This document shows, piece by piece, positions 4,258 through 40,922 of a stretch of 51,300 nt of DNA. The stretch covers positions 1-51,300 of the forward strand of contig JAFBAP010000015.1 of NCBI GenBank assembly GCA_019247695.1. Reading direction: 5' to 3'. Origin of the DNA: Verrucomicrobiota bacterium (GTDB lineage Bacteria > Verrucomicrobiota > Verrucomicrobiia > Chthoniobacterales > JAFAMB01). Below the pieces are notes generated by a model. The model searched no databases. It saw only the letters and a program-made list of their open reading frames with translations, and had not been told where the DNA came from. The position numbers and the translations under genes are program-made. The first letter of the stretch is position 1. Each line of letters starts with the position of its first letter.

Positions 4258-4761
4258 CCACAAATGGAGAGTGCCGGTCACACGGCGGGCCCAGCGGGTT
4301 TGGCGGGCACAACGTAAGAGTTCACACGGTCACACGGCGGCCGCAGCGAGGAGGGCGGGCGCAACGTAAGAGTTCACACGGCGAACACGGCGAGCCACGG
4401 CGAACACGGCGGGAAGACAAAATTACCCAGCACCCGATCTTTCGCCCCCGGCAAGGATTACGCCGTCTTTGCCCCGGGGCGGCGGTAGCCTGGAACGTTA
4501 ATGCCGAGTACGCTCGCCGCTCCGGGGCAAAGACGGCGTAGATTCTCGGGGTGCCTGACCAGCCCGCCCTCACTGCCGGCATTCGTCTTCCCACCGTGTT
4601 CGCCGTGGCTCGCCGTGTTCGCCGTGTGAACTCTTACGTTGTGCCCGCCCGATCGCTGCGGCCGCCGTGTTCGCCGTGTGAACCCAGTCGTTGTGCCCGC
4701 CAAACCCGCTGCGGCCGCCGTGTGACCGGGGCCCCTGTTTTGTGCTTTATGGCATTTGTGG
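4258..4761. repeat. Giant ~500-bp intergenic inverted repeat
   Basis: This block fills the gap between the carboxypeptidase and the sigma-54 activator. Its outer ends are CCACAAATG (4258-4266) and CATTTGTGG (4753-4761). Inside, 4276-4314 pairs with 4689-4727, 4363-4416 pairs with 4587-4640 (54 bases, one mismatch), and 4459-4477 pairs perfectly over 19 bases with 4522-4540. The loop would be about 44 bases. The arms consist of the CACGGCGAACACGGCG-type module shared with other intergenic blocks in the window. Confidence 0.93.
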
Positions 4762-6270: not shown

Positions 6271-6373
6271 CGGATAACGGGTAACGGGTAACGCGTAGCG
6301 GGTAACGGGTTCGGAAAAAGCTGCCGCACCGGACCCGGTACTCGTTACGCGCTGCCCGCTGCCCGTTAGCCGC
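6271..6373. repeat. Inverted repeat of GGGTAAC/CCCGTTA heptamers
   Basis: A left part with units such as GGGTAACGGGTAAC (6278-6312) faces a right part with degenerate CCCGTTA-like units (6340-6370), so the transcript could fold into a hairpin immediately after the activator's stop codon. It separates this gene from rpoN. It belongs to the heptamer repeats seen elsewhere in the window. Confidence 0.75.
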
Positions 6374-11141: not shown

Positions 11142-11402
11142 GGGTTCGGCGTTCGGCATTCGGCATTCGGAGTTCGGAGCGGCAGAGGATGCCACTAATC
11201 CAGTGGCGCGTGGCGGGTAACGAGTAACGGGTACAAACTCGGAGAGGCCGGGCGGAACGCTGCGAACGAAGCAGCCTCATCTGTGTAATCTGTGGATGTT
11301 TCTCTCTTTTCTGCGTGCTCTGCGGATGATCCTGTCTTTCCGCCGGACATCGGACCCGGTGATACGGCGTCTCCGAACTCCGAACGCCGAACCCCGAACT
11401 CC
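11142..11402. repeat. Composite intergenic repeat block
   Basis: The gap between the GTPase gene and exbB holds GTTCGG-type heptamers (11144-11176), a GGGTAACGAGTAACGGG piece (11214-11232), the module CTGTGTAATCTGTGG ... CTGCGGATGAT (11280-11330) and a closing CTCCGAACTCCGAACGCCG run (11371-11402). The first and last runs are reverse complements of each other, so the block can fold on itself. Modules are shared with the other blocks in the window. Confidence 0.88.
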
Positions 11403-11442
11403 TTCTTCTGGACAGGCGGCGAACCGGCACTTATAAGTGCGC

Positions 11443-14794: not shown

Positions 14795-16039
14795 ATGAGC
14801 TATCGACGAGTAGTGGTAACCGGCATCGGTGTGGTATCGCCCGTCGGTGACGACCCGAAAACCTTCTGGAACAACCTGGTCGAAGGCCGGAGCGGTATTA
14901 AGCGGATTACCCAGTTCGACGCATCGAGCTTCGACTGCCAGATCGCCGGTGAAGTGACGGATTTTGATCCGGGCGAATACCTGCGCAATCCCAAGGATGT
15001 GCGGCGGACCGACCGGTTTTCCCAGTTTGCGCTGGCTTGCGCCAAGAATGCGCTGGGGGACAGCGGGCTTGACCTTAATCGCGTGGACAAGTCGCGGTGC
15101 GGCGTGCTGGTCGGCAGCGGGATCGGCGGGTTACGGTCGCTCGAAGATCAACACACGGTGCTGATGAATAAGGGCGCCTCCCGGGTTTCTCCGTTCATGG
15201 TTCCGATGATGATCGTGAACATGGGCAGCGGCCTGATCGCGATGGAATACGGCTTTGAAGGCCCCAACTTTGCCATCGTCACGGCATGCGCCACGGCCGC
15301 CAATACCATCGGCGAGGCTTGGCGGATGATCCGCTACGGTGATGCGGACCTCTTCCTGGCCGGAGGGTGCGAAGCCGTGGTTTGCCCGCTCGGCATCGCC
15401 GGGTTCTGCTCGATGCGCGCCATGAGCACGCGAAATGATGAACCCGAAAAGGCCTCGCGGCCCTTCGACCGGGATCGTGACGGGTTCGTCATGGGTGAAG
15501 GCGGCGGTATCCTGGTGCTCGAAGAGTACGAGCATGCGAAGGCCCGCGGCGCGCAAATCTACTGCGAACTCGCCGGGTACGGGCTGACCTGCGATGCTTA
15601 TCATATGACTGCCCCCCGCCCCGAGGGCACGACGGTGGCGCGCGGGATGAAAACCGCTTCGGATCACGCCGGAGTCAATCCGGATCAGGTCGATTACATC
15701 AATGCCCACGCGACCTCGACGCCGGTCGGCGACCTTTGCGAAACCAACGCCATCAAGCTCTACGCCGGTGAACACGCCAAACGCGGGCTGCTGGTAAGCT
15801 CAACCAAGTCGATGACTGGTCATCTGCTGGGCGGCGCCGGCGGCATCGAGAGCGCCGTCTGCGCCCTGGCCATCAAGCACGGCGTGGTGCCTCCGACCAT
15901 CAACCTGGATAACCCCAGCCCGGACTGTGACCTCGACTACGTGCCGAACGTCGCTCGTGAACACCCCGTGCGCGTGGCGCTCAACAATTCATTCGGCTTC
16001 GGCGGTCATAACGCCACCCTCTGTTTCAAGGGCTTGTGA
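14795..16039 (+). CDS. fabF: 3-oxoacyl-[acyl-carrier-protein] synthase II
   Basis: The 414-residue condensing enzyme extends acyl-ACP with malonyl-ACP in fatty acid synthesis. The Cys-His-His triad is present: C165 in TACATAAN, H305 in NAHATSTPVGD and H343 in the KSMTGHLLG segment, with the NSFGFGGHN gate near the C-terminus. No acpP or other fab gene is adjacent, so it may be a stand-alone FabF or serve a specialised pathway. It follows guaB3 after a 50-bp gap without a clear terminator. A repeat block begins directly after its stop. Confidence 0.96.
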   Translation: MSYRRVVVTGIGVVSPVGDDPKTFWNNLVEGRSGIKRITQFDASSFDCQIAGEVTDFDPGEYLRNPKDVRRTDRFSQFALACAKNALGDSGLDLNRVDKSRCGVLVGSGIGGLRSLEDQHTVLMNKGASRVSPFMVPMMIVNMGSGLIAMEYGFEGPNFAIVTACATAANTIGEAWRMIRYGDADLFLAGGCEAVVCPLGIAGFCSMRAMSTRNDEPEKASRPFDRDRDGFVMGEGGGILVLEEYEHAKARGAQIYCELAGYGLTCDAYHMTAPRPEGTTVARGMKTASDHAGVNPDQVDYINAHATSTPVGDLCETNAIKLYAGEHAKRGLLVSSTKSMTGHLLGGAGGIESAVCALAIKHGVVPPTINLDNPSPDCDLDYVPNVAREHPVRVALNNSFGFGGHNATLCFKGL

Positions 16040-16041
16040 GG

Positions 16042-16482
16042 AACGGGTAACGGGTGTCGGGTGTCGGGTCACACGGCGGGCACGGCGATCTGGCGGGCAC
16101 GACGACAGAGGTTCACACGGCGAGCCACGGCGAGCCACGGCGAACACGGCGGGAAGAGGAGAGAGTTCGGGGTTCGGAGTGGCATCCTGGGGGGTGGGTG
16201 CGAGTGCCGGCCTTAGAGTTGCCGCCGGGCCCTCTTAATCTGTGTCAATCCGTGTAATCTGTGGATGATTTCTCTTTTCTGCGTGTTCTGCGGATGATTT
16301 ATCTTCTCGCTGTGGTCGCCGTGGCTCGCCGTGTTCGCCGTGTGAACCTCTGTCGTTGTGCCCGCCACACCCGCTGCGGCCGCCGTGTGCCCTTAATCTG
16401 TGTCAATCTGTGTAATCTGTGGATGATTTCTCTTTTCTGCGTTCTATGCGTGTTCTGCGGATGATTCGGTCTTCCCGCCGTG
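16042..16482. repeat. Composite intergenic repeat, near full-length copy 1
   Basis: This block lies between two converging genes. In plus-strand order it contains GGGTGTCGGGTGTCGGG, a CACGGCGAGCCACGGCG module (to about 16155), GAGTTCGGGGTTCGG, a unique-looking spacer, the module TTAATCTGTGTCAATC ... TTCTGCGGATGAT, an inverted CACGGCG module (16311-16388) and a second copy of the TTAATCTGTG module. Its reverse complement matches 24131-24533 over most of its length. The end of the protease gene lies inside it. Confidence 0.93.
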
Positions 16483-17592
16483 GGTGCGCGGGTTGCGCCA
16501 GGCGGGCCGGCCATCGCGCGGGCGCACCGAATGCACCAGCATCATCTCACCGACATTCTCCGGGGTAACCAGGCCCAGCAACCGTCCGGCCCGGTCCACC
16601 ACCGGCAATGCCGGGCAACTGCATTCCTGCATCTGGCGCAAAGCCGCTTCGAACGGGGTATGCGGCCCGACGACGGGCAGGTCACGCCGCATGACGTTCA
16701 TCACGGGCGCCGCGGGCCCATGACGCCTGAGCGCGGCGATCATGTCGTCGCGGGTGAGCACGCCGAGCACGCGCCCGGTGGCGTCGAGGACCGGAAACTC
16801 ATGTTGGGACGTGCGCAGTAAAGCGTCGACTGCCTCGTCCAGCGTGGCGTGCTCGGGCAGGCTCACCAGGTGCGTCACCATCGCTTCCGAGACCGTCAGG
16901 TTGAGCGCCAGATCTTTCATCTGGGCAGTGGCCGCCTCTTGTTGGGCACCCAGGTAGATGAAGAGCGCAATGAAGATCAGCAAGGGATTGCCGAACAGGC
17001 CGATGAAGCCGAACAGGAACGCCATCGCCTGGCCGACGCGGGCGGCGATCTGGGTCGCCCGTGCATAATCCATGACCATCGCCAGCAGCGCACGCAGCAC
17101 CCGCCCGCCATCCATCGGGAAAGCGGGGATCAGGTTGAAGACCACCAGCGAAACGTTCACCGAAGCAAGCTTGGCCAGCATTCCGATGCCGGGCTGCTGC
17201 AGCCGTCCAAGGTCCTCGACCCCGGCGTGGCGATGCAGGACGAAGATCAGGACGCCCGCAATGACCACGTTGACCAGCGGACCGGCGATCGCCACGACCA
17301 GCTCCTGCCACGGCTTGTCCGGCATGCGTTGGAGGCGGGCCACGCCGCCGATCGGGAGCAACGTGATATCCGGCGTCTGAATGCCGAACTCGCGCGCGGC
17401 CAGCGCGTGACCAAACTCGTGAAGGAGCACGCAGGCGAACAAGGCCGCCATGAATAGCACGCCTTGGATCGCGGCAGTGGTGCCGCCGGTCTGGTAGTAA
17501 CTGAATCCGATCCAGGCCAGAAACAGAAGGAAGGTGATGTGGATCCGAACTTCGGTGCCGGCGAACCGGGCGATTTTGAGAGACCAGCGCAT
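16444..17592 (-). CDS. Site-2 protease family protein with CBS pair
   Basis: The 382-residue multi-pass membrane metalloprotease (M50 family) has the zinc motif H58-E-F-G-H62 and the second ligand motif N-x2-P-x2-P-x-DGGR at 153-164. About 120 residues of paired CBS domains follow the membrane core (DDMIAAL and similar). Such proteins cut substrates within the membrane; CBS domains usually sense adenine nucleotides. ATG 17592 fits the start of the conserved region (MRWSLKIARFAG). The last ~14 residues (THGGKTESSAEHA) and the stop are encoded by the intergenic repeat module, not by family sequence. Confidence 0.92.
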   Translation of the reverse strand: MRWSLKIARFAGTEVRIHITFLLFLAWIGFSYYQTGGTTAAIQGVLFMAALFACVLLHEFGHALAAREFGIQTPDITLLPIGGVARLQRMPDKPWQELVVAIAGPLVNVVIAGVLIFVLHRHAGVEDLGRLQQPGIGMLAKLASVNVSLVVFNLIPAFPMDGGRVLRALLAMVMDYARATQIAARVGQAMAFLFGFIGLFGNPLLIFIALFIYLGAQQEAATAQMKDLALNLTVSEAMVTHLVSLPEHATLDEAVDALLRTSQHEFPVLDATGRVLGVLTRDDMIAALRRHGPAAPVMNVMRRDLPVVGPHTPFEAALRQMQECSCPALPVVDRAGRLLGLVTPENVGEMMLVHSVRPRDGRPAWRNPRTHGGKTESSAEHA

Positions 17593-17776
17593 AAGGTGGT
17601 AGCGGGTTGCGACGGACGTCGTCCTCGAACGATCGCGCGGACCTCCCAAAGTAACAAGCCCTTCCGCACCTCCGAGGAGCCAAGGCGCAAAACGCCGGAC
17701 GTGATTGCGCGCAACCGGCCGGCCGATAACCGCCTGAACCCGTGCGTAAGAAGCCCGGACCGTTCCTCACCTCCGG

Positions 17777-18949
17777 TCAGGCCAGGTCGCCGAGGAACGA
17801 TGAGTCCGGCACGCTGAACAAGCCGTTAAAGACCAACGCCGCTCCACCCAACGCCGCACTATCCCTTCCGAAAGTCGAGACTTCGATTTCCAATTCTTCG
17901 ACGGTTGGAAATTTTCTCTCCTCGAGTCTCTTACGTACCCGTTTTTCGACGAATGGATAGAGTTCAGACAACGGTCCCGCCAGGACGACGAGCTTCGGAT
18001 TAGCGATGTCCGCGAGGTTGCTGATCGTCAGCGCAAGCCATTCCGCCCAGATTTCGACCGCTTTCCGGGCCGTCAACCCGTTCCGTGCAAGATCTTCCAG
18101 CAACCCGGCCAGGTCCTTTGCCTTCCCACCCGCCCGCCGGTAGGAGGCTAGCAGGTTGTTTCGCCCGACGCGGCTTTCCAGAAAACCGATCTCCTCGTCC
18201 GGGTGGCGCTTCGCCGGTTCCAGACAAAGATGGCCGATTTCACCCGCCAGCCCCATGTAACCGCGAAACAGCTTCCGCTCAGAAATGATTCCTGCACCGA
18301 CTCCGGAATCCAACAGGAGAACACAAAGGTCGCTGTATCCGACCCGTCCCCCGAACGATAGCTCCGCCAGCGCGGCTGCATTGGCATCGTTCTCAGCGAA
18401 GGCCGGCAGGGGCAGCTTCACCAGGAGTTCATTCTTCAGGTCAACGTCGTGCCATCCTAACGTCGGCGCTTTACGAATCACCCCTTGGGCGTTGATCAAA
18501 CCCGAAACTGCAAAACCGACTCCGCGTAATCGATCGGAATTCTTCAGTCGCTCAGACCAAACCCGGAGAACGAGGTTGGTCAGATCCTGACAGACGGCTT
18601 CGGGCTTCGTGCTCCGATGCGGAACGGTTTCATGGTGGATGATTGACCCGAATAGATCGATAAGCAACAGATGCACTTCGTCCGCGCCGATCTCGACGCC
18701 GAGAAAATAGGCGCCTGCCCCGTTCAATTTCAGGGCAGCCCCAGGTCGACCGGTAAGCTGCGTCACGAACGCTTCCCCCGTTGCGGCGATGAGACCCTTC
18801 TCTATCAACTCGCCGGTAACCAGGGTCACCGTCGATCGGGTCAGGCCAAGGAAACGCGCTATCTCCGCTCTGGAAAGGACTCCCTTTTCTTTCAGCAGCC
18901 TCAGAACGCGAGCTTGATTTATGTCGCGGAGAAAAGCAGGTCGAGGCAT
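17777..18949 (-). CDS. ROK-family transcriptional regulator
   Basis: The 390-residue protein has an N-terminal winged helix-turn-helix (about 12-60, RAEIARFLGLTRSTV) and a ROK sugar-kinase-like domain. The catalytic-type aspartate is kept (ENDAN, 186-190) and GEIGH is at 236-240, but the C-x-CG-x2-GC zinc cluster expected next is replaced by a segment without those cysteines (PAKRHPDEEIGFLES). It ends the minus-strand sugar locus and probably represses it in response to a sugar. ATG 18949 gives the normal short leader before the HTH; the frame stays open upstream but there it is not conserved-looking. Confidence 0.9.
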   Translation of the reverse strand: MPRPAFLRDINQARVLRLLKEKGVLSRAEIARFLGLTRSTVTLVTGELIEKGLIAATGEAFVTQLTGRPGAALKLNGAGAYFLGVEIGADEVHLLLIDLFGSIIHHETVPHRSTKPEAVCQDLTNLVLRVWSERLKNSDRLRGVGFAVSGLINAQGVIRKAPTLGWHDVDLKNELLVKLPLPAFAENDANAAALAELSFGGRVGYSDLCVLLLDSGVGAGIISERKLFRGYMGLAGEIGHLCLEPAKRHPDEEIGFLESRVGRNNLLASYRRAGGKAKDLAGLLEDLARNGLTARKAVEIWAEWLALTISNLADIANPKLVVLAGPLSELYPFVEKRVRKRLEERKFPTVEELEIEVSTFGRDSAALGGAALVFNGLFSVPDSSFLGDLA

Positions 18950-19082
18950 TGTCGTTTCGCAGGCGTACCCGGATCTGCAGTTGAAGGTTAGAGGCCGCCT
19001 GAACAGCGGGGCAAGTGAAGTGATGAAGGTAGGAGAACGCCCTTGCGTTCCCCTTGACGGCAGCAGGCAACGGATATCTCGG

Positions 19083-19979
19083 CTAACCCTTTCGTACTCG
19101 CCCGGCGAGGTCTTCCTTGCCGGAAACAAGCCTGGCAAGCAGCCGTTTGCCGTGCCCGGACGCTCCGAACGATGAAAGGCGGCTCCGCGCGATTTCACGC
19201 AACTTTCCGCCCACATGCCGCAAGATCTGCTGGTGCCTCGGTTCATGGTCGGGAGGCAGGGCGGCCGCCTCCTCCAAACCGCGTACGAACCCATTGATCA
19301 GGGCAGCCCCGATGTTAATCTTGTAGACATTCAGCATCGCGGCCGCCTTGGTGTCGTCGGGGTGAATTCCGCTGCCGCCGTGCAGGACGAGCGGAATGCC
19401 GGTGCTCCCGGCAATCTCGCCCAGGAGGTTGAGATCAAGGCGCGTCTCCTGGCCGTGCACGGATCCGACCGAAACCGCCAGCGTGTCGGTTCCGCTCTTC
19501 TCGGCCATCTCCGCCGCGTCATGAGCAGCCGCGGTGACAGCCCCTCCGCCCTGGTACTCACCCCCGAACAACCCGACTTCAGATTCGAGAATCGCACCCG
19601 TTTCATGCGCGATTTCAACGAAACGGGCTGTGCCGGCGATGTTATCGGCTAACGGTAGATGCCCGCCGTCATACATAACTGAATAATAGCCGCGGCGTAA
19701 GCTGCGGAAGATGTTGCTGTCTTTTCCGGGGTGATCCTGGTGCATCAGGACCGGTACCGGAGCCTTTTCGGCCAGGGTGCGAATCAGCGCCGAGAGTTCA
19801 TCCATCCCCCCATAGTCGAAATTGATAAAATCGGTCTGAACCATCACGGGCGCGTCTTCAATCTCGGCGGCCTCGATGACCGCGCGCGCCATCTCGAGAT
19901 TGCTGACGTTAAATGATGGCACGGCAAACCTGTTCTCGAAGACGTAAGCGAGAAATAACCGCGGCTTGGTAACAAACAT
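19083..19979 (-). CDS. Class II ketose-bisphosphate aldolase
   Basis: The 298-residue protein is a zinc-dependent aldolase of the FbaA/GatY/KbaY family, which splits phosphorylated ketoses into dihydroxyacetone phosphate and an aldehyde. Visible elements are the HQDHPG segment (80-85) with the catalytic D82 and ligand H83, the YDGGHLP substrate loop, H175 in GSVHG and H200 in LHGGSG. It has a GAAAGGG-like ribosome site before ATG 19979. Its place between the ABC transporter and the ROK regulator suggests it acts on the imported sugar after phosphorylation, but no kinase gene is present in the locus. Confidence 0.9.
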   Translation of the reverse strand: MFVTKPRLFLAYVFENRFAVPSFNVSNLEMARAVIEAAEIEDAPVMVQTDFINFDYGGMDELSALIRTLAEKAPVPVLMHQDHPGKDSNIFRSLRRGYYSVMYDGGHLPLADNIAGTARFVEIAHETGAILESEVGLFGGEYQGGGAVTAAAHDAAEMAEKSGTDTLAVSVGSVHGQETRLDLNLLGEIAGSTGIPLVLHGGSGIHPDDTKAAAMLNVYKINIGAALINGFVRGLEEAAALPPDHEPRHQQILRHVGGKLREIARSRLSSFGASGHGKRLLARLVSGKEDLAGRVRKG

Positions 19980-20029
19980 GAGTTGCCCTTTCGAAAAATG
20001 TAGCGGTGATGCGGCGTCCTGAGTTTCCC

Positions 20030-20782
20030 TTAACCCGCCACCATAAGCCGAACGACCTCGTCATGGTTCGTTTCCGAGATCAGGCGCTCCCCGACTTTTT
20101 CGCCGCGCCGCAAGACCAGGATCCGATCGCTGACCTGGAAGATGTCGATGAGGTTGTGAGAAATGAAAATCACTCCTACCCCGTTCTTCTTGAGTTTCTG
20201 AATTATCTCCATGACTTTCCGTTGCTCGGGCACGCCCAGGGCCGCCGTCGGTTCGTCCATGATCAACACGCGCGCTTTCCAATGGATGGCACGTCCGATC
20301 GCAACCGATTGGCGTTGCCCCCCGGACAGAGACCGGAGGGGATTCTCCGGGTGGTGGATATGGATGTCGAGGTCCTGCAAGGTCACGAGGGCTTCCTGGC
20401 GCATCCGGCGGCGGTCGATGAAGGGCAGTCCCAAGACGCGCCGGACGATCTCCCGGCCGAGAAACACGTTGCCGCCGACGTCCAGGTTGTCCGCAATCGC
20501 CAGATCCTGGTAGATGGTCTCGATCCCCGCGTCCCTCGCCTGGTGCGGCGTTTCGAGGTGGATTGCCTTGCCGCAGTATTTGATGGTCCCCGTATCGGGC
20601 TTGTGCACACCGGAGATGGTCTTGATTAACGTGGATTTGCCTGCGCCGTTGTCGCCCGCCAGGGCAAGCACTTCACCGGGATACAGAGTTAACGAGACGT
20701 CTTTCAGGGCTTGCAAACCCCCGAAGCGTTTCGAGATATGCTCCAGGTCGAGTAACGGTTCCTGGTTGGAAGCATTATTCAT
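20030..20782 (-). CDS. Sugar ABC transporter ATP-binding protein
   Basis: The 250-residue ATPase has Walker A GDNGAGKST (43-51), signature LSGGQ (152-156) and Walker B VLIMDEP (172-178). It is a single-domain member of the RbsA/XylG/FrcA family; the ribose-type enzymes are usually fused doubles of about 500 residues, so this one should work as a homodimer like FrcA. It lies 3 bp behind the permease gene in the same transcript. Confidence 0.95.
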   Translation of the reverse strand: MNNASNQEPLLDLEHISKRFGGLQALKDVSLTLYPGEVLALAGDNGAGKSTLIKTISGVHKPDTGTIKYCGKAIHLETPHQARDAGIETIYQDLAIADNLDVGGNVFLGREIVRRVLGLPFIDRRRMRQEALVTLQDLDIHIHHPENPLRSLSGGQRQSVAIGRAIHWKARVLIMDEPTAALGVPEQRKVMEIIQKLKKNGVGVIFISHNLIDIFQVSDRILVLRRGEKVGERLISETNHDEVVRLMVAG

Positions 20783-20785
20783 CAG

Positions 20786-21823
20786 TTATCGCCTGCCCCC
20801 TTTCTGAATCTGGTCGACCAGTACCGAGATGATGATCACCACCCCGACCGCCACAAATTGCCAGAATGGTTCCACATTCACAAAAACCAGACCATATTGA
20901 ATCACCGCGACGATCAACGCCCCGATGATCGTTCCGATGATCGTTCCGGACCCTCCGAACAGGCTGGCTCCCCCGATCACAACCGCGGCGATGCTGTCGA
21001 GCAGCACCGGTTCGCCCGCCTGGGCCGCGCCGGCGGAAAATTTCGCGGTGTAGAAAATCCCGGCGCAGGCCGCCGACAGTGCGGACAGGATGTAGAGCGC
21101 AAGCGTGGCCGTGCGCACGTTGATGCCCGCGCGCAGAGCAGCATTCACGTTGCCCCCGATGGCATAGATGTGCTGGCCATAGCGCGTCTGAGAAAGCAGA
21201 TAGTGCATGGCCAGGATGATCGCGATCGTCAGGAGCACCAGGTTGGGAAACCCGGCGGTTTCGCCATTCCCGATCGCTCCCAGCAAACCGCCCTGCACCG
21301 GCACGGTGGTCCCCTTCGCCAACAGGAAGGCAACCCCCCTCGCGACGCCGTACATGCCCAGGGTGCCGATAAACGGCGGTACCCGCAGGTCCGCGATCAG
21401 CAGGCCGTTGATCAAGCCGGGCACGACCGCAATGCCGAGCCCGGCCGCAACCGCCACGACGAGGCTTACCCCTGAACCTCCAAACTGTGCCGCCCAATTG
21501 TAAACATGGGCGGTCACAACCGCAGAAAGACCCATCGTGAAGCCTACCGACAAGTCGATCCCGCCGGAGATGATGACGAACGTCTGGCCAAGGGCCAGCA
21601 GGAGCGGCGTCACGGTAAACAGCGCAATCGATTTCACGTTCAGCGGGTTGAACACGAACGTACCGCCATACGCGACGCGAGCCCAGATCTCGAATGCGGC
21701 TAACAGAATCGCCAAAAACAGCCACGCTCGAAAGGCCGCCAAAAGCGCCAGCCAGCGGAACCCCTTCCGGGCTTCACCGCCTGCCAGCGGCACCGGTTTT
21801 GTTAGATTCTTTTCTACCAACAT
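20786..21823 (-). CDS. Sugar ABC transporter permease (RbsC family)
   Basis: The 345-residue integral membrane protein shows about eight to ten hydrophobic segments and the family motifs GGIDLSVG (about residues 69-76) and GGASLFGGSGT near residue 270. It forms the channel of a carbohydrate importer with the ATPase that follows and the binding protein that precedes it in transcription order. Confidence 0.95.
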   Translation of the reverse strand: MLVEKNLTKPVPLAGGEARKGFRWLALLAAFRAWLFLAILLAAFEIWARVAYGGTFVFNPLNVKSIALFTVTPLLLALGQTFVIISGGIDLSVGFTMGLSAVVTAHVYNWAAQFGGSGVSLVVAVAAGLGIAVVPGLINGLLIADLRVPPFIGTLGMYGVARGVAFLLAKGTTVPVQGGLLGAIGNGETAGFPNLVLLTIAIILAMHYLLSQTRYGQHIYAIGGNVNAALRAGINVRTATLALYILSALSAACAGIFYTAKFSAGAAQAGEPVLLDSIAAVVIGGASLFGGSGTIIGTIIGALIVAVIQYGLVFVNVEPFWQFVAVGVVIIISVLVDQIQKGGRR

Positions 21824-21882
21824 TTGATGCGCTCCGTCTAAGTGTCCCGCCTGCCTCCTGAACCAAAGCCGATCGTATGCTG

Positions 21883-22869
21883 CTAATCTGAGTAGATGAA
21901 GCGCTTGACGTTCGGATCGTCGACGTTAGTCTTGTCGATCACGGTAAAGCCGGTGCCGATCAACGGAGGAACCGATTGCCCCGTCAGATGCGCGTAAGCG
22001 GTCAGGACTCCGAAGTACCCGATCTCGGCTGGATGCTGGGCAATGGCGATATCCACGGCGCCCGATTTGATCTCCGGAACAATCGAGGACGGAGCATCAA
22101 AAGCTACCACCCTCACTTTTCCGGTCGTACCGGCCTGTTTCGCTCCATTCGCCGCGCCCATCGCGGAGAAGAGGTTCGCACCGAACACGCCGGCCAGATC
22201 CGAATTGCGCGCCAGGACCGACTGAAACTGCGATGCCGCCTTGTTCGCATCATCATCATTGAACTGGGTCTCCAGAACCGTGACGTTTGGGTGCTTTTTC
22301 ATCTCATCCTTGAACCCCTGCTCGCGCTGATCGGTCGTCGATATCCCGGGTTTCACGTTCGATACGTAGACTTTACCTTTGTCATTGATGGCTTTCGCCA
22401 GTGCGCGCGCGGCGATCTCCCCGCCCAGCACGTTATCGGACGCAACGTAACAGAGCGGAAAATCGGCGTCGCCGGTTCCGGTCTGGTAGTGCCCGTTCCC
22501 GATAAACGTGTCGACCGTGATTACCGGTACTCCGGCCTCAGAGGCCTTCTTCAGCGGCGCGACCAACTGGACCTTGTCCGTCGGCGCGATCAGAATGGCG
22601 CTCGGGTGCCGCGCGGTAACCGCGTTCAACACCGGGACCTGCGTCACCGGATTAAAATCGGGTGCGCCCTGAAATACCAGCTCGACACCCAACGCCTGCG
22701 CGGCCGCCTCCGCACCTTTGTGCATCGTGATGTAGAAAGGGTCCGTCGTAAGCCCGGGGATGAGGGCGATCGTGTACTTGGTGCCGGCCGCCAATGCCGT
22801 TCCGATTGGCGAAAAAGCAACGAGTCCGAGGGTAACAGCTACTGCAACTGTATTTATCCAGCGTTTCAT
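21883..22869 (-). CDS. Sugar ABC transporter substrate-binding protein
   Basis: The 328-residue protein begins with a typical signal peptide (cleavage after ALA, near residue 27) and continues as a type I periplasmic-binding fold (ALIPGLTTDPFY, then GVPVITVDTF). It resembles ribose- and other sugar-binding proteins of the RbsB group. It should capture the ligand in the periplasm and deliver it to the permease. The ligand cannot be read from sequence. Confidence 0.94.
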   Translation of the reverse strand: MKRWINTVAVAVTLGLVAFSPIGTALAAGTKYTIALIPGLTTDPFYITMHKGAEAAAQALGVELVFQGAPDFNPVTQVPVLNAVTARHPSAILIAPTDKVQLVAPLKKASEAGVPVITVDTFIGNGHYQTGTGDADFPLCYVASDNVLGGEIAARALAKAINDKGKVYVSNVKPGISTTDQREQGFKDEMKKHPNVTVLETQFNDDDANKAASQFQSVLARNSDLAGVFGANLFSAMGAANGAKQAGTTGKVRVVAFDAPSSIVPEIKSGAVDIAIAQHPAEIGYFGVLTAYAHLTGQSVPPLIGTGFTVIDKTNVDDPNVKRFIYSD

Positions 22870-22968
22870 ATTGGGGGGTTAAACAGGCCGGGCCGCCGCA
22901 CCATGGATCCAGGATGAAGCCATGGCGTCAGTCACCCGTCCGGTCATGGTTTATGTGAGTTCACCACA

Positions 22969-23988
22969 TCATGGGATGATGGCGATTTTAATGCCTTCGC
23001 GTGCGAAGGCCAAATCCAGCGCTTTTTGGTAGTCTTGTAGTGGAATCTCGTGGGTGACGATTTCGTTCACCTTGATTTTACCGCTCTCCAGATAGTCGAG
23101 CGCTCTGGGGAAACAGTCGATCTGAGCGAAGGAGCCCTTGATCGTGATTTCGCGGCGCATGATGTCGGCCGGCGTGATCCGGGCCATAGCATCGTCGGGA
23201 TAGACGGCATAGACCATGACGGTGCCGCGGCGCCGGGTAAAACGAATCGCATCCTGCAACAACCCGGTGGAACCGGTCGCCTCGATGACGTAATCAAATC
23301 CGTTCGGACTGACCTCCCGGAGACCCTGACGATGAACTTCAGGATTTTTCCGGTCGATCGCCACCACCTCATCGGCAGCCAGGCGCGCGATCAGATCCAG
23401 TTTCGGACCGGCCGGAGCCGCGACGGTTAGATGCGACGCGCCATTCAGTTTGAGCAGTTGCGCCAGTACCTGCCCGGTGGGCCCGGCGCCCAGCAACAGG
23501 ACCCTGCTGCCCGGCTTCATCGCCAGGGTTTGCATGCCGTGTACCGCGCAAGCGGTCGGTTCGACCATGACGGCTTCGCGGGTGGAAAGCTTTTCAATGG
23601 GGAACACCAGGTCGGAGCGAAGCTTGATGTACTCCGCAAAAGCTCCATTAACCTCTACGCCGATGCCGTCAAGGTTTTCGCATTCCAGGAAGTCTCCCCG
23701 TTTACAGTAGAAACACCGGCCGCAGGCCATCGTCGTGCTTGCCGTCGCCCGCTGGCCTTTTTTGAGTCCGGTGACGGCAGAGCCGAGTTCAACGATCTCG
23801 CCCGAAAACTCGTGCCCGGGCGTCAGGGGGAAACGCGGCCCGAACTCGCCTTCGTGGACGTGAAGATCGGTACCGCAGACCCCGCAGGCGTGAACGCGGA
23901 GAAGAATCTCACTGGGTTGGATTTCCGGAACGGGAACGTCTCGGTACGCGAAGTTACGAGGGGCATCGTAAACAATGGCTTTCATCAT
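22969..23988 (-). CDS. Zinc-dependent alcohol/polyol dehydrogenase
   Basis: The 339-residue protein is a medium-chain dehydrogenase. The catalytic zinc ligands C38 (CGVCGTD) and H59-E60 (GHEFSG) and the four structural-zinc cysteines C89, C92, C95 and C103 are present, followed by the LLGAGPTGQV nucleotide-binding turn. It is similar in style to sorbitol and threonine dehydrogenases and probably oxidises a polyol or sugar to a ketose. It is the first gene of the minus-strand sugar locus. ATG 23988 or 23985 matches the usual MKAIVYD start; the open frame further upstream is not family-like. Confidence 0.93.
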   Translation of the reverse strand: MMKAIVYDAPRNFAYRDVPVPEIQPSEILLRVHACGVCGTDLHVHEGEFGPRFPLTPGHEFSGEIVELGSAVTGLKKGQRATASTTMACGRCFYCKRGDFLECENLDGIGVEVNGAFAEYIKLRSDLVFPIEKLSTREAVMVEPTACAVHGMQTLAMKPGSRVLLLGAGPTGQVLAQLLKLNGASHLTVAAPAGPKLDLIARLAADEVVAIDRKNPEVHRQGLREVSPNGFDYVIEATGSTGLLQDAIRFTRRRGTVMVYAVYPDDAMARITPADIMRREITIKGSFAQIDCFPRALDYLESGKIKVNEIVTHEIPLQDYQKALDLAFAREGIKIAIIP

Positions 23989-24036
23989 GGTGAGATTGAG
24001 CGGCGCACAGTCAAGGAGGGAGAAGGATTCGCCAGA

Positions 24037-24055
24037 GTTTGTTGTAAAAACAAAC
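24037..24055. promoter_or_regulatory. Inverted repeat, candidate operator
   Basis: GTTTGTT and AACAAAC, 7-bp arms with a 5-bp spacer, lie about 50 bp upstream of the dehydrogenase start. AT-rich inverted repeats of this sort are typical of ROK repressor sites, and a ROK gene ends this locus. Binding is inference. Confidence 0.4.
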
Positions 24056-24066
24056 GAAGTCAACGG

Positions 24067-24080
24067 GATTTTTAAAAATC
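24067..24080. promoter_or_regulatory. Perfect 14-bp AT-rich palindrome, candidate operator
   Basis: GATTTTTAAAAATC is a perfect palindrome in an otherwise GC-rich region, about 80 bp upstream of the dehydrogenase start and adjacent to a TTGACT (minus strand) that could be a -35 element. It could be a second site for the ROK regulator. Confidence 0.4.
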
Positions 24081-24130
24081 TTCCCACGGTCTCTCAAACG
24101 ACGCTCACCCGGAGAGACCGGATTAACTTA

Positions 24131-24533
24131 AATCATCCGCAGAACACGCAGAGAACGCAGAAAAGAGAAAACATCCACAGATTACACAGATTGACACAGA
24201 TTAAGGGCACACGGCGGCCGCAGCGGGTGTGGCGGGCACAACGACAGAGGTTCACACGGCGAACACGGCGAGCCACGGCGACCACGGCGGGAAGACTAAA
24301 TCATCCGCAGAACACGCAGAAAAGAGGAAAGCATCCACAGATTCCACAGATTGACACAGATTAAGAGGGCCCGGCAGGAACAGGAACTTTAGAATTGATA
24401 TGGGCATCTCGCACCCATGATGCCGCTCCGAACCCCGAACTCTCTCCTCTTCCCGCCATGGTCGCCGTGTTCGCCGTGTGAACTCTTACGTCGTGCCCGC
24501 CAGATCGCCGTGCCCGCCGTGTGACCCGACACC
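24131..24533. repeat. Composite intergenic repeat, near full-length copy 2
   Basis: In plus-strand order: ATCCGCAGAACACGCAG ... CACAGATTAAG (24135-24206), a CACGGCG module (24208-24296), a second ATCCGCAG ... ATTAAG module (24304-24366), a spacer with a CTCCGAACCCCGAACT run, and an inverted CACGGCG module up to a final GTGTGACCCGACACC. It is the reverse complement of 16042-16482 in module order and largely in sequence. It ends a few bases from the murA stop codon. Confidence 0.93.
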
Positions 24534-24537
24534 TGAG

Positions 24538-25797
24538 TCACACCTTCACCCGCTCGATATGAGCGCCGAGGCCGCCGAGTTTTTCATCGATGTGTTCGTA
24601 ACCGCGGTCGATGTGATACACCCGATTGATCTCCGTATAACCGTCAGCGCGCAGTCCGGCCAGGACCAGCGCAGCCGAAGCGCGCAGATCGCTGGCCATG
24701 ACCGGTGCGCCGCTCAGGGCGCCGACCCCTAAAATCCGCGCGGTGGCACCGTCCAGTTCGATGGCGGCGCCCATCCGTTTCAATTCGGACACGTGCATGA
24801 AGCGCTGCGGGAAGATGTTTTCGGTAACGCTGCTCTCTCCGTCGGCCATGGAAAGCAGGGCGCACATCTGGGCCTGCATGTCGGTGGGAAAACCCGGGTA
24901 AGGTTCGGTCTTCAAGTGCAACGGCTTGGGAGTACCGTTGGCCGAAATCGTGACGGACCCGTTATTGCCGGAAATGTGGTATCCTGCGGTCCGGAGCGCA
25001 TCGGTGACCGCAGCGAGGTGGTCAGCCCTGGTACGGGTGACGCTCACCTGTTTGCCCGCCAGCGCACCGGCAATGAGGAAGGTACCGGCCTCAATACGGT
25101 CCGGGATCACTTCGTGTTCGGTCCCGTGAAGCTCGCTGACCCCTTCGATCGTGATGGTCGAGGTACCGGCCCCGTGCACATTTGCACCCATCTTGTTGAG
25201 AAAATCGGCAAGGTCGATCACCTCGGGTTCGCACGCCGCGTCTTCGATCACCGTTACCCCGTCCGCCAGGACCGCGGCCATCATGACGTTATCGGTGCCA
25301 AGCACGCTGGTACCGTACCTTCCCTTCATTGAGACGCGGGCGCCGCGCAGCCGTGGTGCAAACAGTTTCACGTTACCGGCATGCACCCGGACGGCCGCTC
25401 CAAGCGCTTCGAAGCCCCGAAGGTGCAGATCGATAGGCCGGTCGCCGATCACGCAGCCTCCCGGCAGGGACACGGTCGCTTCCTTTTCGCGACCCAGTAA
25501 GGGACCCAGGACGCAGATTGAAGCTCGCATTTTGCGGACGACGTCGTATGGCGCCACCGTCCTGACCGTTTCCGCTTTGACCGTCACGGTGCCGCTGGCC
25601 CGCTCAACGTCGGCCCCGAGGTGCGTGAGGATCTGCAGCAGGTAATGCACATCGCTCAGGTCCGGGACGCGGTGAATGATGCACTCATCGCGGGTGAGCA
25701 AGGTCGCAGCAATGATAGGCAAGGCGGAATTTTTCGAACCGCTGACCTTCACCGTGCCCGCCAATGCGCGACCACCGTGCACGATAATCTTATCCAT
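24538..25797 (-). CDS. murA: UDP-N-acetylglucosamine 1-carboxyvinyltransferase
   Basis: The 419-residue enzyme transfers enolpyruvate from PEP to UDP-GlcNAc, the first committed step of peptidoglycan synthesis. K22-N23 near the start (GSKNSALP) and the catalytic cysteine C115 in LPGGCVIGDRP are present, so fosfomycin sensitivity would be expected. The start overlaps the end of prmC by 8 bp, which makes prfA-prmC-murA one transcription unit. The stop lies directly beside a large repeat block. Confidence 0.98.
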   Translation of the reverse strand: MDKIIVHGGRALAGTVKVSGSKNSALPIIAATLLTRDECIIHRVPDLSDVHYLLQILTHLGADVERASGTVTVKAETVRTVAPYDVVRKMRASICVLGPLLGREKEATVSLPGGCVIGDRPIDLHLRGFEALGAAVRVHAGNVKLFAPRLRGARVSMKGRYGTSVLGTDNVMMAAVLADGVTVIEDAACEPEVIDLADFLNKMGANVHGAGTSTITIEGVSELHGTEHEVIPDRIEAGTFLIAGALAGKQVSVTRTRADHLAAVTDALRTAGYHISGNNGSVTISANGTPKPLHLKTEPYPGFPTDMQAQMCALLSMADGESSVTENIFPQRFMHVSELKRMGAAIELDGATARILGVGALSGAPVMASDLRASAALVLAGLRADGYTEINRVYHIDRGYEHIDEKLGGLGAHIERVKV

Positions 25798-31562: not shown

Positions 31563-31604
31563 CTTATTCTGATACGCCTCCTTCCTCACTATTACGTCGC
31601 TCGA

Positions 31605-32011
31605 TCACACGGCGGGTGCAGCGGAGAGAGAGAGGAGTTCGGAGTTTGGCGTTCGGAGTTCGGAGACATCATATCACCGGTTCCGATCTCCCCCGAGGGT
31701 CACGCGCACACGGCGGAAAGATCAAGTCATCCGCAGAACACGCAGAGAACGCAGAAAAGAGAAAACATCCACAGATTACACAGATTGACACAGATTAAGG
31801 GGACCGGGCGGCAACTCAAAGGTTGACACGCGCACCCGCTCCCCATGCTGCCGCTCCGAACTCCGAACTCCGAACTCCGAACTCCGAACTCCGAACTCCG
31901 AACTCCGAACCCTTTCCTCCTCTTTCCGCCGTGTTCGCCGTGGCCCGCCGTGTTCGCCGTGTGAACCTCAGTCGTTGTGCCCGCCACACCCGCTGTGCCC
32001 GCCGTGTGACC
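31605..32011. repeat. Composite intergenic repeat block with CTCCGAA array
   Basis: It begins with CACACGGCGGGTGCAG, then GGAGTTCGG heptamers (31630-31664), the module ATCCGCAGAACACGCAG ... CACAGATTAAG (31729-31800), a spacer, eight perfect CTCCGAA units (31854-31909) and an inverted CACGGCG module ending in GCCGTGTGACC. Orientation and module order match the right half of 24131-24533. It ends about 7 bases before the stop codon of the glycosidase-like gene. Confidence 0.93.
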
Positions 32012-32017
32012 GAACTT

Positions 32018-34479: not shown

Positions 34480-34575
34480 AGTATTTTTCAAAATCGAACT
34501 CCCCCTGGTTTGCATCGCCTGGCATCAACATGCCGGACTCATCCTTCAATCGATCTTTGGTTTAAAGGATTCCAG

Positions 34576-34896
34576 CGGCGGAACACGGCGGGAAGAGGAC
34601 GATCATCCATCGCACACCCTTAGGCAGTGTCGCGCCAGAACATCACCCGCAGCGGATCCGCAGAACACGCAGAAAAGAGGAAACATCCACAGATTACACA
34701 GATTAAGAGGACCTGGGGGCAGCTCAAAGTTGACACTCGCACCCACCCCGCATGCCGCCGCTCCGAACTCCGAACTCCGAACCCCGAACCCCGAACCCCG
34801 AACCCCGAACTCCGAACTCTTTCCTCTTCCCGCCGTGGTCGCCGTGTTCCGTCGTGTTCGCCGTGTGAACTCTTACGTTGTGCCCGCCGTGTGACC
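34576..34896. repeat. Composite intergenic repeat block with variant CTCCGAA array
   Basis: It contains AACACGGCGGGAAGAGG, a 50-base stretch not seen in the other blocks, ATCCGCAGAACACGCAG ... CACAGATTAAG (34659-34708), a spacer, eight heptamers at 34761-34816 in which three CTCCGAA are followed by four CCCCGAA and one CTCCGAA, and an inverted CACGGCG module ending GTGTGACC. Same orientation as the blocks at 24131 and 31605. Confidence 0.92.
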
Positions 34897-34910
34897 AAAC
34901 TCCGAACCCG

Positions 34911-35417
34911 CTACTCCTCCGTCAGTTTGAGTTCGGCGAACCAGAAGGTGCTCTGGTCAACCGAAAGATCGCTGAACGTCAGGCGAGCGGGATCGGCGTT
35001 TTCAGAAGGGGTAAACTCCACGGTGTAAGTCTTCCATTGATCGCCGAGCGCCACGTTGGTCCCCTGAACCAGTGAGGCCTGGTTACCGGTGGCCTTTTCC
35101 GGCACGACGTAGACGTATTCCCGCGAAGAACTCTTGGCGCGAAAGGCACACCGGTAACGTTTGCCCGCCTGAAACTTGAGGGCCGGTACCCGCAGTTCGA
35201 CGCTCCAGAAAAGGGGCCCCGGCTTCGAAACGGTGACGGCCGCGACCTTTGCGCCGCTGGCTTCCTCGACCACGCGCTCCAAACGTGCCTGAGCGCCTCG
35301 TTGCACTTCGAGCTGAAACAGGGCCGGATCCGGCACCACTTCCTGCGCAAACCCGGCAGCGGCCGGCACGAGACAAATCAGGAAAACGCTCCGGACCACC
35401 AAATCAGGGACACGCAT
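34911..35417 (-). CDS. Small secreted protein, carbohydrate-binding-like
   Basis: The 168-residue protein has a signal peptide (hydrophobic 8-24) and a mature beta-rich domain. Segments such as FQAGKRYRCAFRAKSS and DQWKTYTVEFTPSENADPARLTF are in the style of CBM4/9-type jelly-roll modules, which bind polysaccharides. It has no catalytic domain. It lies behind the large glycosidase-like gene on the same strand, separated by a repeat block, so a joint role in polysaccharide handling is possible but not shown. Confidence 0.65.
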   Translation of the reverse strand: MRVPDLVVRSVFLICLVPAAAGFAQEVVPDPALFQLEVQRGAQARLERVVEEASGAKVAAVTVSKPGPLFWSVELRVPALKFQAGKRYRCAFRAKSSSREYVYVVPEKATGNQASLVQGTNVALGDQWKTYTVEFTPSENADPARLTFSDLSVDQSTFWFAELKLTEE

Positions 35418-36163: not shown

Positions 36164-36399
36164 GCCACAAATGAAGAGCGTGTCGGGTGTCGGGTGTCGG
36201 GTGTCGGGTGTCGGGTGTCGGGTGTCGGGTGAATCGTGGGGGAGCGCTGCCCCTGTCAAGCTTGTAATTCCTCTTTCCGCCGTGGTCGCCGTGGCTCGCC
36301 GTGTTCGCCGTGTGAACTCTTACGTTGTGCCCGCCACACCCGCTGCGGCCACCGTGTGACCGTGTGAACTCTGTCGTTTGCCCGGCACCTCACCATGAC
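36164..36399. repeat. Composite intergenic repeat block with TGTCGGG array
   Basis: It opens with the GCCACAAATG motif shared with the giant inverted repeat at 4258, then seven perfect TGTCGGG units (36181-36229), the segment AAGCTTGTAATTCCTC, and an inverted CACGGCG module through GTGTGACC. A related module order (CACGGCG, TTACAGGCTTGACA, CCGACAC heptamers) is seen on the opposite strand at 51180-51300. Confidence 0.92.
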
Positions 36400-40760: not shown

Positions 40761-40922
40761 CGGGTTGCGGGTAACTCGTAACTGGTAACTGGTTTTCCCC
40801 GGCGACGGCGAGGAGACGAATCAACGCTGACTTTGACGGCGGCATCCGGTACTGGGAATGCCGCAGCAAAAGCTCCGAACTCGCACCAGCTACCAGTTAC
40901 CCGTTACCAGTTACGCGCTACC
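40761..40922. repeat. Inverted heptamer repeat between converging genes
   Basis: GGGTAAC/GGTAACT-type units (40765-40795) face CCAGTTACCCGTTACCAG-type units (40893-40920) across about 95 bases. It fills the gap between icd and the AI-2E transporter gene, whose ends converge here, and could serve as a two-way terminator. Confidence 0.8.

Follow-up and report, generated by a model that had tools for sequence, protein, structure and literature searches.

An out-of-place block of about 8 kb between facing copies of a dispersed repeat suggests recombinational reshuffling of a Verrucomicrobiota chromosome

How did a protease gene and a sugar operon come to lie between FabF and MurA in this genome, and did the two long repeats that bracket them take part? 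The order GuaB-FabF-EamA-MurA-PrmC is found in four relatives (G003, G005, G006, and G007), with about 1 to 1.35 kb from FabF to MurA; the contiguity of FabF, EamA, and MurA was seen again in named records for three of the four, and FabF and EamA are also adjacent in G004 and G010. In the window (the whole stretch analyzed here, 51,300 nucleotides, which is an entire contig), the position of EamA is taken up by 8.4 kb comprising the protease, the sugar locus, and two repeat elements, e1 and e2, one at each outer junction. The left neighbor, FabF (beta-ketoacyl synthase; 14795 to 16039, plus strand), and the right neighbor, a MurA-type enzyme of the EPSP synthase family (24538 to 25797, minus strand), are the genes that adjoin EamA in relatives. 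Between them lie a site-2 protease (M50 with two CBS domains; 16444 to 17649, minus strand) and a sugar locus encoding ROK, class II aldolase, ABC ATPase, permease, periplasmic binding protein, and zinc dehydrogenase (17777 to 24087, minus strand), and the junction between protease and ROK (17650 to 17776) is free of any repeat module.

The reverse complement of 24131 to 24536 aligns with 16042 to 16482 over about 410 nt, and when e1 was searched against the whole genome, the best other match was this same e2 interval on the minus strand (E = 3.4e-145; 87% identity counting gaps), which bears out the positions and the inverted orientation assigned to the pair in a first-pass annotation of the sequence. 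That annotation had also placed the site-2 protease and the ROK/ABC/aldolase/dehydrogenase genes within the enclosed 7.6 kb, as was confirmed by an inner distance of 7,648 bp and by a Pfam scan. In the local alignment, 372 of 388 columns are identical, with 16 mismatches and 40 gap positions, the longest identical run is 114 nt, and each element has private differences; the best ungapped arms (16302 to 16466 and 24131 to 24295) are 98% complementary over 165 nt. Among the 703 pairs formed by the 38 copies compared, e1 and e2 score highest (512 bits; runner-up, 479), and their identical run compares with a median of 31 nt. The first-pass annotation had allowed that identity might be too low for recombination; the 114-nt run instead exceeds the published minimal efficient segments of 23 to 27 bp for RecBC and 44 to 90 bp for RecF (PMC12074656; see also PMC5378121), and the length and identity of the pair are sufficient for RecA-type recombination.

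Element e1 (16042 to 16482, plus strand) extends from the stop codon of FabF to inside the end of the protease gene, and its modules follow one another as heptamers, left arm, CCGAAC-type heptamers (reverse), core a-u, right arm, and tail a-u. The FabF end consists of the 7-nt tandem units CGGGTAA and CGGGTGT (16042 to 16066, plus strand), and similar units also lie behind FabF in G001, a genome of the same genus. The left inverted arm (GGTCACACGGCGGGCAC...CACGGCGGGAAGA; 16067 to 16157, plus strand) has a degenerate periodicity of 9 to 10 nt and is 86% complementary to the right inverted arm (16302 to 16392, plus strand), and as terminal inverted repeats the two arms score 115 versus a null maximum of 22. 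These arms of about 90 nt enclose a loop of about 145 nt that holds the core module a-u (AATCTGTGTCAATC..GTGGATG - TTCTGCGTG..GCGGATG; 16234 to 16295, plus strand), and an extra a-u tail module follows on the inner side (16394 to 16466, plus strand). Element e2 (24131 to 24536, minus strand) has the same module order reversed, with its inner arm at 24205 to 24295 and its outer arm at 24454 to 24526 (both minus strand) and the inner-side tail in the same place as in e1, and it ends 1 nt before the stop codon of MurA. As single-stranded DNA, e1 folds far more strongly than its shuffled versions (z = -11.8). We attribute no regulatory function to the strong hairpins that the elements form. A structured RNA family was considered and rejected, as Rfam at the gathering score gave no structured-RNA match anywhere in the window.

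The two elements are not a private pair: they are ordinary members of a dispersed, high-copy family of intergenic inverted repeats in this genus of Chthoniobacterales. With e1 as the query, at least 43 places in the 5.19-Mb assembly were recovered, which together hold at least 126 matches. Allowing two mismatches at most, we counted the core motif AATCTGTGTAATCTGTGGATG 101 times on the forward strand and 100 times on the reverse strand of this genome, 66 times in G001, and 23 to 54 times in G004, G008, and G010, with almost none in the rest of the order; the reversed motif, used as a control, gave zero matches in every genome. Across the loci compared, the common plan is an arm, a core of heptamers and a-u, and the same arm inverted, although other members have different cores between their arms. 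The window contains about eight clusters of the family, six of them besides e1 and e2: a member with an unrelated core, itself a hairpin, between family arms in the DacD/NtrC gap (4259 to 4745); heptamers, core a-u, and heptamers without arms in the MglA-like/ExbB gap (11142 to 11404); a member with core, heptamer arrays, and right arm (31602 to 32012); a partial member (34574 to 34920); heptamers with one arm (36180 to 36380); and a member at the contig end (51037 to 51284). The palindromes of the DacD/NtrC member are concentric, with the hairpin core TACGCCGTCTTTGCCCCGG / CCGGGGCAAAGACGGCGTA nested within the family arms, and at this site G001 has only a short run of different repeat sequence. 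Arrays of the 7-nt units CCCGTTA / CGGGTAA, tandem and inverted and distinct from the arm family, were also observed (649 to 699, 6274 to 6348, and 40872 to 40922).

Like the heptameric intergenic repeats of Xanthomonas and Nostoc (GGGAATC type; PMC4692102), the family forms arrays of short units that are mostly intergenic, lie on both strands, include many inverted pairs, and vary in length and sequence between close species while the gap is kept; unlike those repeats, its arms are built mainly of degenerate 9- to 10-nt units over about 90 nt, and several 7-nt families and a core are present. With bacterial miniature elements of the MITE type (RUP, NEMIS, ERIC, and Nezha) it shares small size, the absence of coding capacity, inverted ends, and strong folding, but its arms of about 90 nt compare with 15 to 30 nt in the MITE definition (PMC3733652) and its cores are unrelated among some copies. 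Moreover, target-site duplications are absent from 35 of 38 arm-to-arm intervals and only 2 to 3 nt long in the other three, these intervals being loosely called, with variable ends, and including some that are not true elements. REP/BIME and TIR families with RAYT/TIRYT transposases are likewise high-copy extragenic palindromes in clusters, and some TIR families are described as having long and occasionally double inverted repeats (PMC3733652, PMC2817692); the units here are far longer than the 20- to 40-nt palindromes of REP/BIME, however, and no GTAG or CGTC tag was seen at the arm ends. The TAACTGA repeats of Beggiatoaceae (PMC4679880) are also numerous intergenic 7-nt tandem units, but they are direct and of one unit sequence, whereas the family described here is inverted. 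A limited literature search, including one with the core 20-mer, found no description of the family.

What happened at the locus can be read in part from the same-genus G001, one contig of which carries the 3' end of FabF, an orthologous element, EamA, and an IlvD-like gene. The element shares its heptamers and left arm with e1 and has a different core. The position of this orthologous element between FabF and EamA shows that an element already stood behind FabF when this species and G001 split, so that e1 predates the rearrangement and the breakpoint lies either within e1 or on its inner border. The stop codon and last 11 or so codons of the protease gene (16444 to 16480) are supplied by e1, and the homologues of the protease in the order end near its residue 387, whereas the frame here continues into the element. 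Judged by sequence, the DNA beyond the FabF-side element changed in this genome from EamA to the protease and sugar operon. On the dehydrogenase side, homology to G001 stops at position 24076 and is followed in G001 by esterase and cupin genes; on the ROK side, it ends at about 17715, without the protease. Continuity with G001 is therefore broken inside the e1-e2 segment as well. Nine element sites allowed a comparison with G001; breaks coincide with just two of them, e1 and e2, and the other seven are colinear, which indicates that the elements are not breakpoints by default. The absence of a synteny break in relatives, which would have spoken against the first-pass reading, was thus not what we observed, since relatives show a break at both e1 and e2.

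A search of this 97%-complete assembly found no EamA of the G001 type. The best candidates, two EamA homologues located at C49 and C94, share only 48 to 49% identity with the G001 protein, and no arm-type element adjoins them, for which reasons we treat them as paralogues; relocation of EamA within the genome was accordingly rejected.

We consider recombination between dispersed copies, with e1 and e2 as members of the family, to be the best explanation of the rearrangement and a somewhat probable one. RecA-dependent ectopic crossover, with or without gene conversion, would have involved the FabF-side element and a second copy adjoining the protease or the operon, giving the observed joins; recombination through the repeats would thereby have joined formerly separate blocks, with the loss of EamA. 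Conversion between neighboring inverted copies could have kept e1 and e2 highly similar or made them so, and their rank as the top pair fits either such conversion or a shared origin in the event. In favor of this explanation we count the contiguity in relatives, the FabF-element-EamA arrangement of G001, the esterase and cupin genes that follow the dehydrogenase end of the operon there, the lack of a G001-type EamA in this genome, the protease frame that enters e1, the rank of the pair, and the colinearity of the seven other readable element sites. Against it, neither the protease/ROK junction nor the EamA/IlvD junction of G001 holds an element, so breaks also happen without one; the reciprocal product and donor sites were not found, the IlvD segment of G001 being absent from this genome; the 3' end of MurA is missing in G001; and both genomes are draft MAGs. 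The first-pass proposal that the pair could invert or mobilize the segment is partly upheld, in its premises of recombination-grade identity and synteny breaks. With genes foreign to the locus inside the segment, EamA lost from that locus, and no element at the third junction, the break does not look like that of a simple inversion. Mobilization as a unit is unsupported because the segment has neither a transposase nor a target-site duplication, and we found no direct evidence that the segment was inverted or mobilized.

Alternatively, the locus may have been rearranged by another route and the elements may have spread later into the new gaps, the bracketing being coincidental, given that a considerable fraction of the gaps in this genome contain elements. 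This history is possible but unlikely. It gains from the density of about eight family clusters per 51 kb, from the two breakpoints without elements, and from the repeat content of one and the same gap, which differs between this genome and G001 and therefore implies fast turnover; it loses from the FabF-side element, which predates the split, from the extension of the protease frame into e1, and from the colinearity of most element sites but not those of e1 and e2. None of five sites compared in G001 is cleanly empty, several holding other repeat material, so no insertion boundary can be read.

The present order might also not exist in the cell, if a short-read assembler joined unrelated blocks via repeat copies. 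Repeats limit this assembly. Elements are over-represented at contig ends, with 5 of 29 element matches less than 400 nt away from one, the window itself terminates beside an element, and contigs of G001 break near repeats too; for this reason misassembly remains a live rival. We nevertheless judge it rather improbable, since the longest run shared by e1 and e2 is limited to 114 nt and both have private differences, other elements on this and other contigs sit in conserved colinear gaps, and the rest of the nearly complete assembly contains no EamA of the type expected.

A composite-transposon-like unit, in which the inverted elements serve as ends for a transposase acting in trans and the segment moves whole, would suit the inverted orientation, the near-identical ends, and the foreign cargo. 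It is very unlikely and was rejected, as a Pfam scan found no transposase among the enclosed genes, the arm-to-arm intervals show no convincing target-site duplication, and continuity with G001 is broken within the segment. Phase-variable inversion between e1 and e2 is scarcely credible, because, although inverted copies 7.6 kb apart are sufficiently identical, no recombinase gene adjoins them, none of the genomes compared has the alternative orientation, and the gene content gives no apparent hint of selection for switching.

The FabF-EamA gap (here, 16040 to 16482; L095, L117, L118, L119, and L279) holds long hairpins whose arms are unrelated between lineages. Long inverted repeats are present in G001, G003, G004, G006, and G007. 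Their arms are unrelated, save that G004 and G006 have GGCGTTC-type heptamers in common; the inverted repeat of G010 is weak, and G005 is nearly gapless. Other gaps have hairpins in some genomes only. Sister-genus elements of 150 to 250 nt (L244 to L263; G004, G008, and G010) share arms of about 30 to 45 nt, ATCCGCAGATTACACAGATTACGCAGATT, around mostly unrelated cores, and their inverted repeat often reaches into the AT-rich flank; in one orthologous pair, the arms are kept and the core has diverged. We tentatively raise the possibility that some gaps in the order keep a long hairpin while, lineage by lineage, whichever repeat family is abundant at the time supplies new arms, much as gaps with Xanthomonas heptamer arrays are kept while length and sequence vary (PMC4692102). 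If true, this would imply that both arms are replaced or regrown together, by nested insertion into hairpins or by template switching, and a shared gap with exchanged arms offers a testable case for the origin of palindromes.

As far as a limited literature search goes, little seems to have been written on the high-copy spacer repeats of uncultured soil Verrucomicrobiota, which break MAG assemblies. Here, one repeat pair sits exactly at lineage-specific breakpoints. The out-of-place block of about 8 kb between facing repeats suggests, without proving it, that the chromosome was reshuffled by repeat recombination; if confirmed by reads, this would tie a specific noncoding repeat family to a change in gene order.
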